A DNA stretch of 30,220 bases from a virus, in the IMG/VR virus record IMGVR_UViG_3300042324_000444, positions 1-30,220 of that record. One strand, 5' to 3'. Made by a program: the position numbers and the translations under genes. This document shows, piece by piece, positions 18,071 to 28,084 of the stretch. Numbering within the stretch: the stretch's first letter is position 1; each line of letters starts with the position of its first letter. The notes beneath the pieces were generated by a model, which saw nothing but the letters and a program-made list of their open reading frames with translations, did not search any database and had not been told where the DNA came from.

Positions 18071-18994
18071 ATGATAAAAGGAACATATGTATATTATGAA
18101 GACGGTAAGGAAATTTTTCGTTCTTCAAATGTTATTACAAAGTATGGCAAAAGATTCCTAACGAGTTTCCTTGCTGGAAGAGACTCATTCAATTCAAAAA
18201 CAATGGCATTTGGAATTGATAGCACCTCTGCAACAGATGCAGACACAAGGCTGGGATTTGAATTTTATCGAACTCCAGTTGAATTTGGTAGCACTGATAT
18301 ACAAACATTAAATGACACCACTACTTATTCTGTAGTTTATAAAACCACAATACCACAAGATGTGGCTGGATACATTACAGAGGTAGGAATTTACCCAGAG
18401 TTTAGAGACTCCATTACTTCTTACGACAGCAAGTTTATTGCAGATTTTGAAAGCCAACTAGATTGGACAAACAACCCATCTATATCTTTAAATAATTCTA
18501 GAGTCGGGCAATATACTTTAAGCATGTCTTCTAACGGAACTGCGGCAAGAGAATATAAAAGTAATGTACAGCAAATAGACTTGTCAGGTTATAGCGTAAA
18601 CGATACCCTAAGACTGGCTTACTTTAAGGAAGATGAAAACTTAAGTAGCATTATTATTAAATTTTATAGCTCTCCGTCTGACTATTACTCTATCACAATT
18701 ACTCCAGAGTCTGGGACGGGATACAAGATAACTCCTGGTATACCGCTAAGCAATCTTTTTTCAAATGCCAGTACATTAAATGTAGACTCTTCTAATATTA
18801 ACCAGATAGGTATTACAATTACTCCAGCGGCTGGAGTATCAACTTCGGTAGATATGGACGCATTAAGAATTAATGACGAAGATACATTCAGTCCAGATTT
18901 TGGTTTGATAAGCAGGTCTGTATTATCTACACCGCTTGTAAAATTGTCTGGAAGACAGGTAGAAGTCGAATACAAATTGGATTTAGGATTCTAG
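18071..18994 (+). CDS. Tail fibre/adhesin component with carbohydrate-binding-like domain
   Basis: This 307-residue protein begins with a segment (about 1-115) typical of tail-tip proteins: FRSSNVITKYGKRFLTSFLAG and AGYITEVGIYPEF, a pattern of receptor-region proteins that start a fibre. Residues about 120-290 form a second beta-rich domain (DFESQLDWT, YTLSMSSNG, LRLAYFKEDENLSSIIIKF) resembling a jelly-roll carbohydrate-binding module. It ends in a strand VEVEYKLDLGF. It has an AAGGAGA ribosome site ending about 4 nt before the ATG, and the next gene starts one base after its stop. It probably contributes to host recognition, but no specific sugar can be inferred. Confidence 0.6.
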   Translation: MIKGTYVYYEDGKEIFRSSNVITKYGKRFLTSFLAGRDSFNSKTMAFGIDSTSATDADTRLGFEFYRTPVEFGSTDIQTLNDTTTYSVVYKTTIPQDVAGYITEVGIYPEFRDSITSYDSKFIADFESQLDWTNNPSISLNNSRVGQYTLSMSSNGTAAREYKSNVQQIDLSGYSVNDTLRLAYFKEDENLSSIIIKFYSSPSDYYSITITPESGTGYKITPGIPLSNLFSNASTLNVDSSNINQIGITITPAAGVSTSVDMDALRINDEDTFSPDFGLISRSVLSTPLVKLSGRQVEVEYKLDLGF

Positions 18995-21518: not shown

Positions 21519-23822
21519 ATGCCAAAAGCATATTTAAAGAAAGACGTAAACGGCACAAGCAAATGGGTACAGCTTAAGAAGATATACTTAAAAAAGAATG
21601 GAAACTGGACATCTTTAGCTACTGTGTATGTAAAAAAACTTGTGGGCACTACAAGCAAATGGGTGCAAGTTTTTTTGGGTGCTGGCCCATCACTTAATAG
21701 CTCTCCAACAATAACTCCAAGATTAGGCGGAAAAACGTTTGATATATATGACAGCACAAATGGAAGCTGGGATGGCGCAACTACTTTTACTAGACAGTGG
21801 GTTAGATCAGACGCAGAAGCAGGCCCATTCGTAGCCATTGGTGCAGCAACTTCAGCGGCATACACAACAACAGATGATGATGATGGTAAATGGATAACAG
21901 TAACTGTACGTGCATCAGACGGCACACTTTTTAACGAAGCAAATGCTACACCAGTTAAAATAGTTAAGTATGCTCCAGTATCACTAACAACTAATGGAGG
22001 ATATTATATTGGAGTAACCTCTCCTGGATCCCCACAACCTGGTCAGACGGTAGGAATTTTTGCACAAACAGACCCCGACTGGAAAGTAACTACAGATAGA
22101 ACAAATGATACTTCACCAGACTCATCTCTTTTTGAGTACGAATGGAAGTGGGAAGATACTGGAGCTATACGCACAGATTACACTGACAGCACATATTTAA
22201 TTTCAGAGGATGATTTAACACATAAGATATCAGGAAGAATTAAAGCTGTAAATACTGGTGGATCAACATTCAGTGCTTGGGCTACTCCTACTGGTACAAT
22301 TGCAACAGCCCCAGTAATTGTTACGATGCCATCATGGAAAACAACTGGTGTACAAATTGGCAATACAATAACAGCAAATACTGGAACATACTCACCAGAG
22401 CCAGACAAAGTTTATTGGATGTTCCAGTACTATAATACTAACCGTTCAGCCTGGATACCTATATACAACTCTGATGGGACAGTACTGGGCAGCGGAACTG
22501 ATACATCACATAACCAAGATCACTCGGTAGTTATACCAGCAAAATTTTATCTTGACGGAACAAGCACTAATGTGACCGCTGTAGGTAAATTAATTAGACT
22601 TGTTAGCGATTCCTCACTTGGATCAGCTGTGTCTATACAGCATAGCACTCCAAACTTAGGGCCAATAACTGCAGTTGTAGAGACTCTTGAGAATAGAGTG
22701 CCTACTGCTGTTTCTAATATATATAGAAGAATAGACGGAACCTGGACAAAATTTGGAACTGCTACTACCAACGTAACTCTCCTTTGGCTAAATACCAGAC
22801 TTAGAAATACCAGTACAGGGGGAACTGCAAAACATACATTTTATACAACAGATGCAGAAGATAAAACTACAGATTTTTTTAATGACATCGGAGGAACTGG
22901 ACTTACAATGACCTCTTATAGATTCGGGGTTCAGGCACATGGTGTAGGCGATTACACTGGAGATGACTTTTGGTCGATAGGAACAGAAGATGAAGGGGCT
23001 TATTCTGAAAATACATCTAACGTAAATCCACAGTTCCCCTCTAGACCAACTGGACTTACAGCAACAAGAATGTCTAATAGCAGAATTGATTTGGCTTGGA
23101 ATGCAGCAGGAGGATCACCAACTAATTACCATTTATATTATAGTACTGTGGGAGATTATAGTGACATTATAGATAAAAACACTACAGAAGATTATGAAAT
23201 AGGAAATGTAACTAGCTCTAATAGAACTGGTTTAGCTGGAAATACACAATACTGGTGGTGGGTTCGTTCAAAGAACGCTACTGGAGTAAGCAGATGGTCA
23301 GCATTTGCAACAGCAACAACTGAAGCAAATCCTACTACAACTACTACAACTACTACTACACCCGCACCAACTACTACCACGACTACCACGACTACTACGA
23401 CTACTACGACTACTACAACTACTCCAGCACCTACTACTACGACAACTACGACTACTACGACTACCGCAGCTCCAACTACTACGACAACTGCTTTGCCAGC
23501 AGCGGTATTTACAGTAAACAGCGTAGGAAGAAGCGCCAGTGGTAGAACTATAACTATGACCTGGACTTCAACAAGAACAAGTGTTACATTTTTATGGTGG
23601 AATACACGTCTACAACGTACCACTTCAACCGCAAACGTTAAACATACACTGTTTGACGAGACACCTAGAAGCGATGTTTATACTGACGTTACAAACGGTA
23701 CTTTCAGGATGGGAGTTCAAGGTAGAGGCAGCAGAGTAAGCAATGGAAACGCCATTTACACAATTGGAACATCTGACGAGGCAGCTTACACTGAGTCTTC
23801 AAACATTACCATTAACCAATAA
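21519..23822 (+). CDS. Modular tail fibre protein with duplicated domain and threonine-rich stalk
   Basis: A 767-residue protein built of repeats. The N-terminus (1-50) holds three WVQL/IYLKKNG-like short repeats common in phage tail proteins. Ig-like modules follow (about 55-400). Residues 418-504 and 688-767 are two copies of one domain, each with LWxNTRLxxT, KHTx and FGVQ/MGVQ followed by SIGTEDEGAYSE or TIGTSDEAAYTE. Between them are an Fn3 domain (about 506-600) and a linker of four threonine blocks (9, 18, 11 and 5 Thr) separated by PAP, PAP and AAP (residues 606-657). Such Thr/Pro linkers are extended and, in other systems, often O-glycosylated. Two glycosyltransferase genes lie just downstream. 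It probably acts as a spaced adhesin on the virion. Confidence 0.75.
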   Translation: MPKAYLKKDVNGTSKWVQLKKIYLKKNGNWTSLATVYVKKLVGTTSKWVQVFLGAGPSLNSSPTITPRLGGKTFDIYDSTNGSWDGATTFTRQWVRSDAEAGPFVAIGAATSAAYTTTDDDDGKWITVTVRASDGTLFNEANATPVKIVKYAPVSLTTNGGYYIGVTSPGSPQPGQTVGIFAQTDPDWKVTTDRTNDTSPDSSLFEYEWKWEDTGAIRTDYTDSTYLISEDDLTHKISGRIKAVNTGGSTFSAWATPTGTIATAPVIVTMPSWKTTGVQIGNTITANTGTYSPEPDKVYWMFQYYNTNRSAWIPIYNSDGTVLGSGTDTSHNQDHSVVIPAKFYLDGTSTNVTAVGKLIRLVSDSSLGSAVSIQHSTPNLGPITAVVETLENRVPTAVSNIYRRIDGTWTKFGTATTNVTLLWLNTRLRNTSTGGTAKHTFYTTDAEDKTTDFFNDIGGTGLTMTSYRFGVQAHGVGDYTGDDFWSIGTEDEGAYSENTSNVNPQFPSRPTGLTATRMSNSRIDLAWNAAGGSPTNYHLYYSTVGDYSDIIDKNTTEDYEIGNVTSSNRTGLAGNTQYWWWVRSKNATGVSRWSAFATATTEANPTTTTTTTTTPAPTTTTTTTTTTTTTTTTTTPAPTTTTTTTTTTTAAPTTTTTALPAAVFTVNSVGRSASGRTITMTWTSTRTSVTFLWWNTRLQRTTSTANVKHTLFDETPRSDVYTDVTNGTFRMGVQGRGSRVSNGNAIYTIGTSDEAAYTESSNITINQ
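23334..23489 (+). repeat. In-frame ACN triplet tract encoding a poly-threonine stalk
   Basis: Four runs of ACT/ACA/ACC/ACG codons (23334-23360, 23370-23423, 23433-23465, 23475-23489) encode 43 threonines, broken by PAP, PAP and AAP. The runs mix synonymous codons, so it is not a pure dinucleotide or trinucleotide slip tract, but changes in unit number would stay in frame. The opposite strand reads as a long valine run, which is only a shadow. Confidence 0.92.
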
Positions 23823-23834
23823 TAGGGAGAAAAA

Positions 23835-24266
23835 ATGACAAATATAGATAAATTAAATAGAATACAAGAAATTGAGATTCAGCAGAGATTATTAAATGAT
23901 GAAATAAAAATACTTTATAGCACAATAACAAAAGAAATAAATGATGAATCATATTTAATTGCTCAAGAGATTTACAATGAAAAAACATTGCTAATGAAGT
24001 CGCTAGTTTTAGAAAAAATTGATATTATGATTAGTTTGGGATTTACGCCAGATAATGGGTCGGTAAACGAGTCATTAAGGGAAACGAGTTTATGGAAACA
24101 AATAGAAAAAGGTGAGGTTGGGCCAGAAGTTGCAGACAGCAGATACTCTATCTGTACAAATTGCCCAGAATTTGTTACAATATCTAAGCAATGCAAACCG
24201 CTGGGCGTATTTGCAAAAGAGTATTCATCGTTTGAGTCCTCAACTTGCCCTATAGGAAATTGGTAA
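23835..24266 (+). CDS. Small protein with C-terminal Cys-rich (zinc-ribbon-like) motif
   Basis: A 143-residue protein. The first 100 residues are helical and charged, a likely coiled coil. The end holds CTNC, then KQCKPLGVF and a closing STCPIGNW. This matches a Cys-rich tail seen, from memory, in many phage proteins near tail fibres, which usually has a second CxxCxC cluster (KQCKKCGCF). Here the middle cluster keeps only one cysteine, leaving four in all (CxxC, C, C). Four are still enough for one zinc site. AGGGAG lies before the ATG. The stop shares its last base with the next start, so it is coupled to the glycosyltransferase genes. Function unknown. Confidence 0.65.
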   Translation: MTNIDKLNRIQEIEIQQRLLNDEIKILYSTITKEINDESYLIAQEIYNEKTLLMKSLVLEKIDIMISLGFTPDNGSVNESLRETSLWKQIEKGEVGPEVADSRYSICTNCPEFVTISKQCKPLGVFAKEYSSFESSTCPIGNW

Positions 24267-25132
24267 TGTCAAAAATAGCTATTACGGCTTTTGTAGATAA
24301 AGGCGGGAATTTTGTAAATGAGGCAAATCAAATGACCCTAAGTGGTAAAGATCTGGATGAAAGATTTACTTTTGTACTTTTTGCAGAGCCTGAAATAGCC
24401 AGTCAAATAAAAAAAAGACACAACGTGTTAGTATATGAGTATGAGTCTCCAAAGAATGTGTATTATGAAACATATAGGTATGCTAAATCTTTAAAGTTTA
24501 TGGAATCAAATAAACATATACTTAATCAATATAAATACTTAATAAAAACAGACACTGATGTTTTTGTTACCAATAATTTAAATAATTATGTATTTGACGA
24601 CAAGATTTCTTTTAGGCCTGGATTCTATTCATTAACTGAAAGATGTATCGAGCAAACCTATGAGTTGGCAAATATATTTAATTACTCGGGATACAAAAAA
24701 ATATTTAATGCGGGTGCAACATTAATTGGTCCCTCTTCAGACATTATCAGGGTAATGGGTCTTTCTGATATTTTATGCAAGGATATATTTTACTATCTAT
24801 GCCCAGATGGCAAGTATGGAGACACCATAGAAGAGACTTGGCTAAAATCATTATATTCTGGAACATCAACGCTTATTGCTACAGAAATTGTTATTTCATC
24901 TTTATTTAATGAAGAAAAATTTATTACTACTGATTCCATTGATGCTAATTGCTTTTCAACAGATAGTTTAGACGGAATATTTCATATACATCAGTGGCAC
25001 GGAGTAGGTATGTATTCAAAATTTGATGCTAGAGACGGACACTACGACAATATGGATTATGCAGATCCAAATACTATATCGGGATACTGCCTTAATATGT
25101 TTTTAGAGAATAAAAAGGAAATAAATGTCTAG
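24266..25132 (+). CDS. Putative GT-A type glycosyltransferase
   Basis: The best start is ATG 24266, which overlaps the previous stop (TAATG) and gives 288 residues; an ATG 21 nt upstream in frame is less likely. A DTD motif (residues 96-98, in YLIKTDTDVFVT) after a Rossmann-like first half is the DxD metal/nucleotide-sugar site of GT-A enzymes. Later come FNAGATLIGPS and a segment near the end (FHIHQWHGVGMYSKFDARDG) that fits an acceptor or metal-binding histidine region. This suggests transfer of a sugar from a nucleotide donor; the acceptor is unknown. It is cytoplasmic, with no signal peptide or membrane segment. It overlaps the next gene by 8 nt. Confidence 0.75.
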   Translation: MSKIAITAFVDKGGNFVNEANQMTLSGKDLDERFTFVLFAEPEIASQIKKRHNVLVYEYESPKNVYYETYRYAKSLKFMESNKHILNQYKYLIKTDTDVFVTNNLNNYVFDDKISFRPGFYSLTERCIEQTYELANIFNYSGYKKIFNAGATLIGPSSDIIRVMGLSDILCKDIFYYLCPDGKYGDTIEETWLKSLYSGTSTLIATEIVISSLFNEEKFITTDSIDANCFSTDSLDGIFHIHQWHGVGMYSKFDARDGHYDNMDYADPNTISGYCLNMFLENKKEINV

Positions 25133-26027
25133 TATATTTGTACAAATATCTTCTTTTCAAGATCGGGAACTTCCGTTAACTATATTAGACTGCATGAGTA
25201 AGTCTTCTGGGAAACACACAATTAGCTTTGGAGTATTTAATTGTTATTTTAAAGAAGATAAAATTAGCATTCCAGATATGCCTAATATTAAGTTTGAAGA
25301 GTCTATTGCGCCAGATAAAATTGGGGTAGGGATAGGAAGATTCATAGCGAATTCTTTTTATAGCGGAGAAGATTATTATTTTCAAATTGATTCGCATAGC
25401 AGGTTTGAAGAAAATTGGGACGAGCATTTAATATCAGATTATATATATTATAAAGAAGCAGGCCTCAATCCAATCTTAACGACATACCCAGCGGTCTATC
25501 TTTATGAAGACGGTCAAGTTAAATATCTGCCAAACGATGATACACCATACATAGGGTACCCTAATACCCCAGAAGCCCAAGCACAATTTTTAAAAGACAA
25601 AATATTACCGCAGGCCTCTATGCACAACAAAGAAGGTAATATATTTACAAAAGGTGTGTCTGGAGCTCAGATATTTGGCCCAGGAGATCTTCATCTGATT
25701 GAGCCAAACAAAAAAATACTTCATTGGGGAGAAGAGACATTATACTCAGTTAGATTTTATACACACGGGTATGACCTATTGATTCCTAGAAAAAATAATA
25801 TATATCACCTATACTATAATTCAGAGAATGAAGATATGAGTATGAGAAAATTGCCAGGTAATTATTTTAAAAAGGAAGTTGAAGATCTGCTGGTAGATTC
25901 TTTAGCAGAGTTGGCTAGGATTGTGGGCAATAATATTGTAGGGTATCAGGCGCTTGGAGACAAAAGGACACTTGACGAATATGAAAGATATGCTAATATT
26001 AATTTTAAGACTGGAAGAATAGGATAA
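25125..26027 (+). CDS. GlcNAc-family (PF11397-like) glycosyltransferase
   Basis: A 300-residue enzyme resembling the GlcNAc transferase family that includes eukaryotic Skp1-type UDP-GlcNAc:hydroxyproline transferases and bacterial homologues. Signature parts: FVQISSFQDRELPLTILDC at the N-terminus, GIGRFIANSFYSGEDYYFQI before a DSH triad (89-91, the DxH-type metal site), then RFEENWDE, and a later SGAQIFGPG segment with HWGEETLY. In this family the protein attaches GlcNAc to a protein or sugar acceptor. Its start lies inside the previous gene (8-nt overlap), so the two enzymes are probably made together. The donor and acceptor here are inferred, not shown. No membrane segment is evident. Confidence 0.85.
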   Translation: MSSIFVQISSFQDRELPLTILDCMSKSSGKHTISFGVFNCYFKEDKISIPDMPNIKFEESIAPDKIGVGIGRFIANSFYSGEDYYFQIDSHSRFEENWDEHLISDYIYYKEAGLNPILTTYPAVYLYEDGQVKYLPNDDTPYIGYPNTPEAQAQFLKDKILPQASMHNKEGNIFTKGVSGAQIFGPGDLHLIEPNKKILHWGEETLYSVRFYTHGYDLLIPRKNNIYHLYYNSENEDMSMRKLPGNYFKKEVEDLLVDSLAELARIVGNNIVGYQALGDKRTLDEYERYANINFKTGRIG

Positions 26028-27283: not shown

Positions 27284-28084
27284 ATGAGCAACGATTTAAA
27301 ATGGATGTTATCATCCGACCAGCAGTTCCCATATCAAGATGATAAGATGATAGCCCTTTGGTTTAAGGTTATGAAGTGGTTTAAGCCAGACGTTGTTGAC
27401 TACCTTGGCGATACAGATGATCAGGCATGCTATAGCAAGTATACAGAAGGCAAGTCTGCAGAGTTTTTAAACTATCATAAGAATGATAGTAAGGATCTAA
27501 TTGTTCCAATGATGCGCCATGAAGCAAAAGGTGCAAGAGATTTCTATGCCAAGACAAGAGAGATGCTTCCTGATGCACAATTGTTTTCAGCTCTAGGCAA
27601 TCATGACATCCGAATATTTAATTATGTAGATGCAAAACTTCCAGAGTATATTTCTGAGGTAACTCCAGAATCTATGTGGAGCCTAGACTCATTGGGATAC
27701 GAATATATTTATTACAACGAATTGCCTAAGCGTCGCTTTGGAGATATTCACGTACACCATGGACTTTCAATTGCAGCAGGCGGAGCAGTAAGAAAGGATA
27801 TGGAAGACCTACAAGTTTCACTTATCCGTGGACACTCACACAGAATTGCCTCACATATGGTAACATATGAACTTAGAAACGGCGGAGAAGGAGAAACCCT
27901 TCGTGGCTATGAAATTGGACATATGTGTGATGAAAAGAGTGATGGAATGAAATATAGCCAGCACCACGATTGGCAAAAGGGATTTGCCGTTGCCCATATA
28001 GTAAATGACTATCCACATATTCAAATGATTCATATTGCACCAGACTACTCATGCGTAGTTGATGGAAAGGTATTTACTTTATAA
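27284..28084 (+). CDS. Calcineurin-like metallophosphoesterase
   Basis: A 266-residue protein with the metal-binding motifs of the calcineurin-like phosphoesterase family: D12 within SSDQQFPYQD, GDTDD (42-46), GNHD (105-108), HVHHG (156-160) and GHSH (183-186). The first motif is D-x-Q rather than the usual D-x-H, so a metal ligand may differ. Such enzymes hydrolyse phosphodiester or phosphomonoester bonds; members in phages can act on nucleic acid ends or nucleotides. It is the first gene of the replication operon and shares a base with the next start (TAATG). The exact substrate is unknown. Confidence 0.88.
   Translation: MSNDLKWMLSSDQQFPYQDDKMIALWFKVMKWFKPDVVDYLGDTDDQACYSKYTEGKSAEFLNYHKNDSKDLIVPMMRHEAKGARDFYAKTREMLPDAQLFSALGNHDIRIFNYVDAKLPEYISEVTPESMWSLDSLGYEYIYYNELPKRRFGDIHVHHGLSIAAGGAVRKDMEDLQVSLIRGHSHRIASHMVTYELRNGGEGETLRGYEIGHMCDEKSDGMKYSQHHDWQKGFAVAHIVNDYPHIQMIHIAPDYSCVVDGKVFTL

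Follow-up and report, generated by a model that had tools for sequence, protein, structure and literature searches.

The viral record IMGVR_UViG_3300042324_000444 encodes a tail-region protein with a dense threonine (Thr) tract and, shortly downstream, an enzyme of glycosyltransferase family GT60; the whole 30.2-kb stretch analyzed here (30,220 nucleotides) is referred to as the window. The sequences and predicted folds make it likely that this locus is a phage-encoded mucin-type O-glycosylation cassette acting on the phage's own Thr tract. Such glycosylation of its own Thr stalk had been proposed in an earlier note on the same DNA and gains good support from linkage of tract and enzyme across lineages, a matched control within one tail module, the mucin-transferase-like predicted fold of the enzyme and the biochemistry of the GT60 family. 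Cassettes made up of a Thr-tract protein, a Cys miniprotein and GT60 are widespread, and the window carries one of them. Virion glycosylation has been described for a few actinobacteriophages and is a known kind of phage modification; new here is the unusually clear pairing of acceptor and enzyme. No description of the cassette was found in the open-access PMC literature, covered mostly as titles and beginnings of abstracts, including a search for TTTTTTTT in phage tail fibres.

The proposed acceptor is part of a fibre-like tail-region protein of 767 amino acids encoded by an open reading frame (ORF) at 21519-23822 (+ strand). This gene lies two genes downstream of that for a phrog_9983 tail protein (18071-18994), and its position together with weak, below-cut-off Ig-like matches (Ig_J_second, 1.3e-4) suggests that the product is a tail fibre. 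The Thr blocks (23334-23489, + strand) follow the pattern P-T9-PAP-T18-PAP-T11-AAP-T5, in agreement with the earlier description of 43 threonines in four blocks set apart by PAP or AAP. With 43 Thr, 7 Pro and 7 Ala among its 59 residues, the tract has the dense Thr and Pro/Ala composition of a mucin-like acceptor. Thr is common throughout the carrier protein (157 in total), but accounts for only 114 of the 708 residues outside the tract, and the blocks are therefore not a matter of chance composition. Thr codons within the tract are mixed (ACT 26, ACG 8, ACA 6, ACC 3) and Tandem Repeats Finder detects imperfect arrays of 3, 9 and 42 nt in its DNA, which suggests that repeat slippage probably helped to build it. 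Corresponding tracts in two relatives contain 42 (L005) and 36 Thr (L100), the L-numbers being labels of loci collected for comparison. The tract is followed by a C-terminal tip of 104 amino acids (23508-23819, + strand) that diverges among relatives, with 52-53% identity to the tips of L005 and L100; the N-terminal part is 97% and 86% identical, respectively. The tip also resembles an internal domain of its own protein (40% identity to residues 401-520). Identity among the window and its relatives breaks at the tract, which resembles a tip-exchange joint; such a joint does not conflict with a glycan coat.

Three genes at 23835-24266, 24266-25132 and 25125-26027 follow the carrier gene, overlapping by 1 and 8 nt, and form the near-touching chain that had been noted earlier. 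The last of them (25125-26027, + strand) encodes a glycosyltransferase that belongs to PF11397 (4.7e-33, 115.6 bits against a curated cut-off of 21), which we take to be CAZy GT60. Its previous classification as a DSH-containing GlcNAc-family enzyme holds: D89 and H91 of the DSH motif (residues 89-91) are invariant in a 61-row alignment, as are E203 and E204 of an HWGEE motif. The DXH motif presumably has a metal-binding role, and we take DXH and WG-E to be motifs of mucin-type transferases. The earlier note had named profile searches and structure prediction of both enzymes as checks. An AlphaFold2 model based on the 61-row alignment has a predicted local distance difference test (pLDDT) score of 96, and a Foldseek search of the PDB places polypeptide N-acetylgalactosamine (GalNAc) transferases at ranks 1-34. 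Ranks 1-29 in VIA-align are likewise all polypeptide GalNAc-transferases (Z 18.8-22.4, root-mean-square deviation 3.0-3.5, 248-267 residues), with the next match at Z 16.9. The enzyme is a GT-A transferase whose predicted fold is that of a mucin-type polypeptide transferase, a shared fold being no proof of function. PDB sequence searches with GT60, as a single sequence or as the 61-row profile, returned no match. The catalytic-domain alignment takes up the enzyme's 300 residues and leaves no room for the ricin-type lectin domain of GT27-type enzymes, for which reason filing the enzyme as GT27 was rejected.

To examine the linkage of enzyme and tract, two sets of GT60 loci were collected. The alignment used for the first set, whose seeds had come from tracts, matched at least 581 viral relatives, of which the best 80 were kept. 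The second set started from eight seeds without a seen tract of 10 Thr in 20 residues and consists of the best 80 of 348 relatives, 35 of them on new contigs; three seeds (L188, L191, L193) have less than 3 kb of upstream sequence and L198 has a weaker Thr/Pro/Phe tract. The first set, these 35 additions, the window and L100 form a pool of 117 loci, of which 90 have at least 3 kb upstream and were counted while the other 27 were left out. The window relatives L001-L003 are outside the pool and L156 was omitted from A5 for a stop in the matched stretch. A mucin-like tract was defined as 20 amino acids with eight or more T and a total of 17 or more T/P/A/S, a definition chosen after the first results to deal with false positives of a simpler one (at least 10 T in 20 amino acids).

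Of the 90 GT60 loci, 78 have a mucin-like tract upstream of the enzyme gene on its own strand; none has one downstream on that strand, and eight have one on the opposite strand. Such a tract is absent from 30 random viral loci and from the fetched DNA of 27 bacterial contigs carrying GT60 relatives of 26-30% identity (L238-L264; Magnetococcales, SAR86, Halomonas and others). The simpler definition likewise gives 78/90 loci upstream, corresponding to 48/57 clusters at 90% identity and 25/30 at 70%, with 0/30 random loci and 1/27 bacterial loci (opposite strand) in the controls; a downstream match also appears in 4/80 loci, in each case exactly at threshold and not low-complexity. In the second set alone, 31 new contigs extend 3 kb or more upstream, and 24 of these have the tract there. 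Tract and GT60 are 313-4290 nt apart (median 1777, n = 92). After tract masking, the carriers sort into 17 sequence families, with 49 of 92 in the largest; simple inheritance with a single fibre gene hence does not account for the tract. In addition, (ACN)6 runs are present in 20 of 24 large GT60 records, on one strand only in each. The reversed-pattern control gave up to four matches per record, and in some records these lay on both strands.

A matched comparison was made possible by a small tail gene that 12 loci have in common, at a distance of about 4.4 kb before GT60. We fetched 80 loci by this gene irrespective of GT60 (the best 80 of at least 587), and 66 of them have at least 5 kb downstream. 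A mucin-like tract follows the tail gene in 9/9 loci with GT60 downstream versus 6/57 without (Fisher 1.4e-7), and by the simpler definition in 9/10 versus 14/56 (p 1.7e-4), several of the 14 being ordinary Thr-containing repeats by eye; since the loci are related, both P values overstate independence and serve as a guide only. L394, with GT60 upstream, is treated as lacking GT60 in the first count and as having it in the second. By phmmer, the enzymes of all nine GT60 loci are GT60-like and not DUF7164, the family of the window's other transferase; five of the nine contigs were already in the GT60 set. The six tract loci without GT60 comprise five with Thr-Pro-rich repeats and L394, which has no real tract by eye. 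In four of the five Thr-Pro-rich exceptions (L376, L379, L391, L392) the Cys protein is accompanied by an epimerase and a match to a 2-oxoglutarate (2OG) oxygenase, and in L376, L379 and L391 other ORFs occupy the place of GT60. Among five such ORFs scanned in L376 and L379, the epimerase aside, one (L379:7208-7972) has weak, below-cut-off transferase matches. Replacement of GT60 by another transferase in these exceptions is our guess. A second protein in L376 and L379 is oxygenase-like by eye and has no Pfam match.

The converse search started from TTTTTPAPTTTTT-coding DNA, which yielded 90 stretches in 86 viral records with the Thr frame open in 90/90. In whole-record searches, PF11397 was found in 4/4 records of the window's group, in 5/42 and 6/41 tract records outside it and in 0/14 well-known control genomes. 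The GT60 gene follows the tract on the same strand at 364-2334 nt in nine of eleven GT60-bearing tract records and at about 2.3-2.4 kb in the other two. GT60 is close to the tract when present, and most tract records are without it. Among 54 tract records with at least 2.5 kb downstream, 11 have GT60, including two window relatives (L031, L078), 14 have an enzyme with a DCH or DSH motif that is GT2-like by PF00535, and none has both; neither enzyme was found in the 30 random viral loci. The hidden Markov model (HMM) for this DXH-type enzyme was built from loci that were later counted, without L059. The count of 54 omits L017, L081, L082 and L096, which share records with other loci, as well as L021, L050 and L089; the record of L081 is long enough yet uncounted, those of L021 and L050 have GT60, and L089 is the window's twin. 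The 14 records with the GT2-like enzyme are part of the 43 without GT60, and their sequences make it a possible second family of tract-modifying enzymes. Separately, a GT2-like DCH/DSH transferase was noticed after poly-Thr tracts without GT60 in L014, L016, L029, L036, L038, L041, L042, L047, L049, L057, L060, L063, L077, L080, L093, L094 and L097.

Several observations weigh against self-glycosylation of the tract by GT60. The earlier note had held that enzymes without tracts and tracts without enzymes would speak against it; in a partial run of this comparison, enzyme alone proved uncommon (12/90 GT60 loci have no upstream tract), whereas tract without GT60 is common (43/54 records, of which 29 also lack the DXH-type enzyme). 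GT60 was rejected as a general marker of such tracts on the latter count. Only about four lineages make up the nine GT60-bearing loci in the matched comparison, three of which (L365, L367 and L368) are near-identical, and the random control is rough, having been drawn with one arbitrary 15-mer, totaling 228 kb and being unmatched to tail modules. To our knowledge, the pair of tract and GT60 occurs in uncultured phages only. A tblastn search of cultured phages with GT60 (E limit 10) gave matches at 8e-10 in two jumbo phages and at 2e-6 in a third, and a second query led to the same three; these phages, XacN1, CM1 and RAS14, have relatives of 22-30% identity, and no Thr tract is present within 8 kb of the relative in the two regions read, those of XacN1 and RAS14. 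Foldseek matches of the GT60 model include, from rank 38, entries of TarP, a GT-A enzyme that modifies wall teichoic acid. The donor sugar of GT60 is not readable from sequence, and glycosylation as such is suggested by sequence features, gene order, linkage, conserved motifs and predicted folds rather than chemistry.

Among other explanations, the one that survives best, while still improbable, is that the enzymes glycosylate other virion proteins such as capsid or tail tube and that the Thr tract is a mere neighboring flexible linker. Capsid and tail-tube subunit C-termini are glycosylated in Mycobacterium phages (Freeman et al., 2023, as cited in PMC12619734), and tracts do occur without GT60. 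However, this explanation predicts neither that the tract should track GT60 within one tail module (9/9 versus 6/57) nor that 17 carrier families should have a tract upstream of GT60. Modification of host surface glycans or teichoic acids in serotype conversion or superinfection exclusion, as by TarP, appears somewhat less probable. TarP is of prophage origin and its entries among the structural matches fit such a role, but polypeptide transferases occupy Foldseek ranks 1-34 and VIA-align ranks 1-29, below which Z drops from 18.8 to 16.9, and the genes lie in the tail module adjoining the tract. Slightly less credence still is given to the Thr repeat being mainly a DNA-level device, an expandable, recombinogenic linker for tip exchange to which the glycosyltransferases are unrelated. 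The imperfect tandem arrays and the drop in identity to L005 at the tract, from 97% in the N-terminal part to 52% in the tip, are in line with this, yet the linkage to the enzyme and the recurrence of Thr/Pro/Ala across different carrier families would be unexplained; a role in tip exchange may well be true in addition. Glycosylation of phage DNA, for which glucosylation offers a precedent (mentioned in PMC12619734), is very improbable given the polypeptide-transferase-like predicted fold, the tail-module position and the absence of a base-modification gene among the scanned ORFs, which were part of those in the window, itself a fragment.

The gene preceding GT60 (24266-25132, + strand) encodes a DUF7164 glycosyltransferase with a DTD motif and a GT6-like predicted fold. 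It matches PF23741 (DUF7164) at 4.5e-18, and the DTD motif is invariant in a 14-row alignment. All 50 Foldseek rows listed for its model are blood-group (ABO) or alpha-1,3-galactosyltransferase entries, with a best E value of 2e-9, a template modeling (TM) score of about 0.5 and 9-13% identity, on a model of pLDDT 79 with two low-confidence loops and with no Pfam GT6 match listed. We call the enzyme no more than GT6-like. The earlier assignment as a DTD glycosyltransferase is borne out in these respects, although the Pfam galactosyltransferase match (0.013) is below cut-off. A PDB sequence search gave chance-level matches only, and tblastn against cultured phages found no relative at 1e-5. The GT60 set contains DUF7164 relatives on 12 further contigs, and in five of these (L138-L142) they lie on the opposite strand. 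In L144 and L314, DUF7164 and GT60 are fused into one 594-residue protein, which places both enzymes in one pathway. L100, a relative of the window's fibre, has tract, Cys protein and GT60 and no DUF7164, so DUF7164 is optional. In the two-enzyme pairing with the tract put forward earlier, GT60 is the constant partner and the DTD enzyme an optional addition.

The gene between carrier and enzymes (23835-24266, + strand), absent from the earlier note, encodes a 143-residue protein whose C-terminal domain is rich in Cys and ends in CPIGNW. Its C-terminal 49 residues match phrog_13558 (4.5e-7). It has no Pfam match of its own and groups with the cassette's Cys miniproteins (DUF6171-like), one family member of which matches PF19668 at 5.6e-6. 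Based on HMMs built here, with family names taken from one representative each, a Cys miniprotein is found in 102 of the 117 GT60 loci. Optional parts of the cassette are DUF7164, a radical S-adenosylmethionine (SAM)/SPASM enzyme (54/117; representative PF04055/PF13186), an NAD epimerase (38/117; PF01370, GalE-like at 1.4e-28) and a 2OG-Fe(II) oxygenase (33/117; PF13640, 1.4e-18). The GalE-like epimerase may supply the donor sugar, and we count it toward glycosylation on sequence grounds. The substrate of the radical SAM/SPASM enzyme could be the tract or a sugar; enzymes of this type beside GT60 (e.g. L138:4997-5998) score below every NCBIfam cut-off. Seven loci encode a GT2 domain fused to tetratricopeptide repeats about 3.3 kb before GT60 (L171:1-1077 and similar), and these loci carry short Thr-tract proteins of roughly 100-115 amino acids.

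In the proposed mechanism, GT60 would transfer an N-acetylhexosamine to threonines of the poly-Thr tract during virion production, most likely alpha-linked N-acetylglucosamine (GlcNAc) from uridine diphosphate (UDP)-GlcNAc. The DUF7164 enzyme would then probably add a second sugar and extend the glycan. The Cys-rich protein, from the cassette's most constant small partner family, may, judging by co-occurrence, serve as adaptor or carrier. The result would be a stalk coated with glycans directly ahead of the variable tip, with stiffness, protease resistance, masking or binding as candidate benefits. Which substrate and sugar are used, in what order the two enzymes act, what the Cys protein does and how the virion profits are all our inferences.

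TcOGNT1 and TcOGNT2 of Trypanosoma cruzi and the Skp1 enzyme Gnt1 of Dictyostelium share with the phage enzyme, as judged by profile, the PF11397 domain, in which we take TcOGNT and Gnt1 to fall. Eukaryotic GT60 enzymes have, next to Thr in trypanosome mucins, a second acceptor in the hydroxyproline of Skp1. The phage enzyme differs from these in being phage-encoded, in its proposed acceptor, a tail-region protein, and in being known here from sequence alone. According to PMC9472816, TcOGNT proteins are CAZy GT60 members and TcOGNT1 makes GlcNAc-alpha-1-O-Thr in mucins. Polypeptide alpha-GlcNAc transferase activity was assayed on KPPTTTTTTTTKPP with UDP-GlcNAc and needs Mn2+ (PMC3769586), and the phage tract TTTTTTTTTPAPTTT resembles this peptide from the T. 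cruzi work in having a Thr run flanked by Pro/Ala. A review places GT60 polypeptide alpha-GlcNAc transferases without a ricin-like domain in several protist groups (PMC8724618). The GT27 initiators of animal mucins are the best structural matches of the GT60 model and share the family motifs DXH and WG-E; in contrast to GT27, the phage enzyme belongs to another CAZy family, has 9-14% identity and has no room for the lectin domain usual there. Like mycobacteriophages, whose glycosyltransferases modify virion proteins, the window's phage encodes its own enzymes, but the mycobacteriophage targets are capsid and tail-tube C-termini (Freeman et al., 2023, via PMC12619734), whereas in the present system, read from its genes, the cassette consists of GT60 and a Cys miniprotein and the target would be the Thr tract of a fibre-like protein. 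DUF7164 shares with GT6 (ABO, alpha-1,3-galactosyltransferase) the predicted fold and DTD motif, and is set apart by its low identity, moderate TM score and two low-confidence loops.

Since a recognizable acceptor and its enzyme occur together across several phage lineages, glycosylated virions, and the sites of their glycans, could be predictable from genome sequence alone. The compact mucin-type system is testable in E. coli and a possible tool for making O-glycosylated proteins, and it gives reason to examine environmental phages for glycans immediately behind their variable tips. Tentatively, and with the odds somewhat against it, modular O-glycosylation of their own tail proteins might be widespread in uncultured phages, with interchangeable transferases (GT60, GT2-like DXH and others), Thr or Thr-Pro tracts and a hydroxyproline branch with a 2OG-Fe(II) oxygenase. 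In that case phages would be producers of true mucins, and the roots of eukaryotic GT60 could be viral or bacterial. The Thr-Pro/oxygenase branch suggests, by analogy, hydroxyproline as a second acceptor, with no phylogenetic power here. An oxygenase is present in 11/11 Thr-Pro loci versus 19/79 others (Fisher 1.3e-6), while clustering at 70% leaves one Thr-Pro cluster (p 0.23) and the GT60 tree requires two changes of the Thr-Pro/oxygenase state, with only five supported independent pairs. A prolyl-hydroxylase/Thr-Pro link was accordingly demoted from result to lead.

By its genes, the window looks like part of a tailed phage: upstream of the cassette it contains head, head-tail adaptor and tail genes and a 2275-residue ORF of tape-measure size. 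The 87-kb record 3300042327_000544 encodes proteins identical to the window's at the cassette locus. Matches of the adaptor protein in cultured phages are restricted to Streptomyces (127) and Rhodococcus (3) phages, all below 60% identity, making an actinobacterial host possible. Among tract carriers elsewhere, those of L145, L147, L149, L150, L151, L158 and L159 have C-terminal domains that are Hint/intein-like by eye, with below-cut-off PF13403 matches (0.0008-0.0025) in the three scanned, and these carriers contain Phe-Pro segments such as FPPFFPPFFP. Downstream of the cassette, the window encodes a metallophosphoesterase-like protein at 27284-28084 (phrog_221, 1.5e-54).

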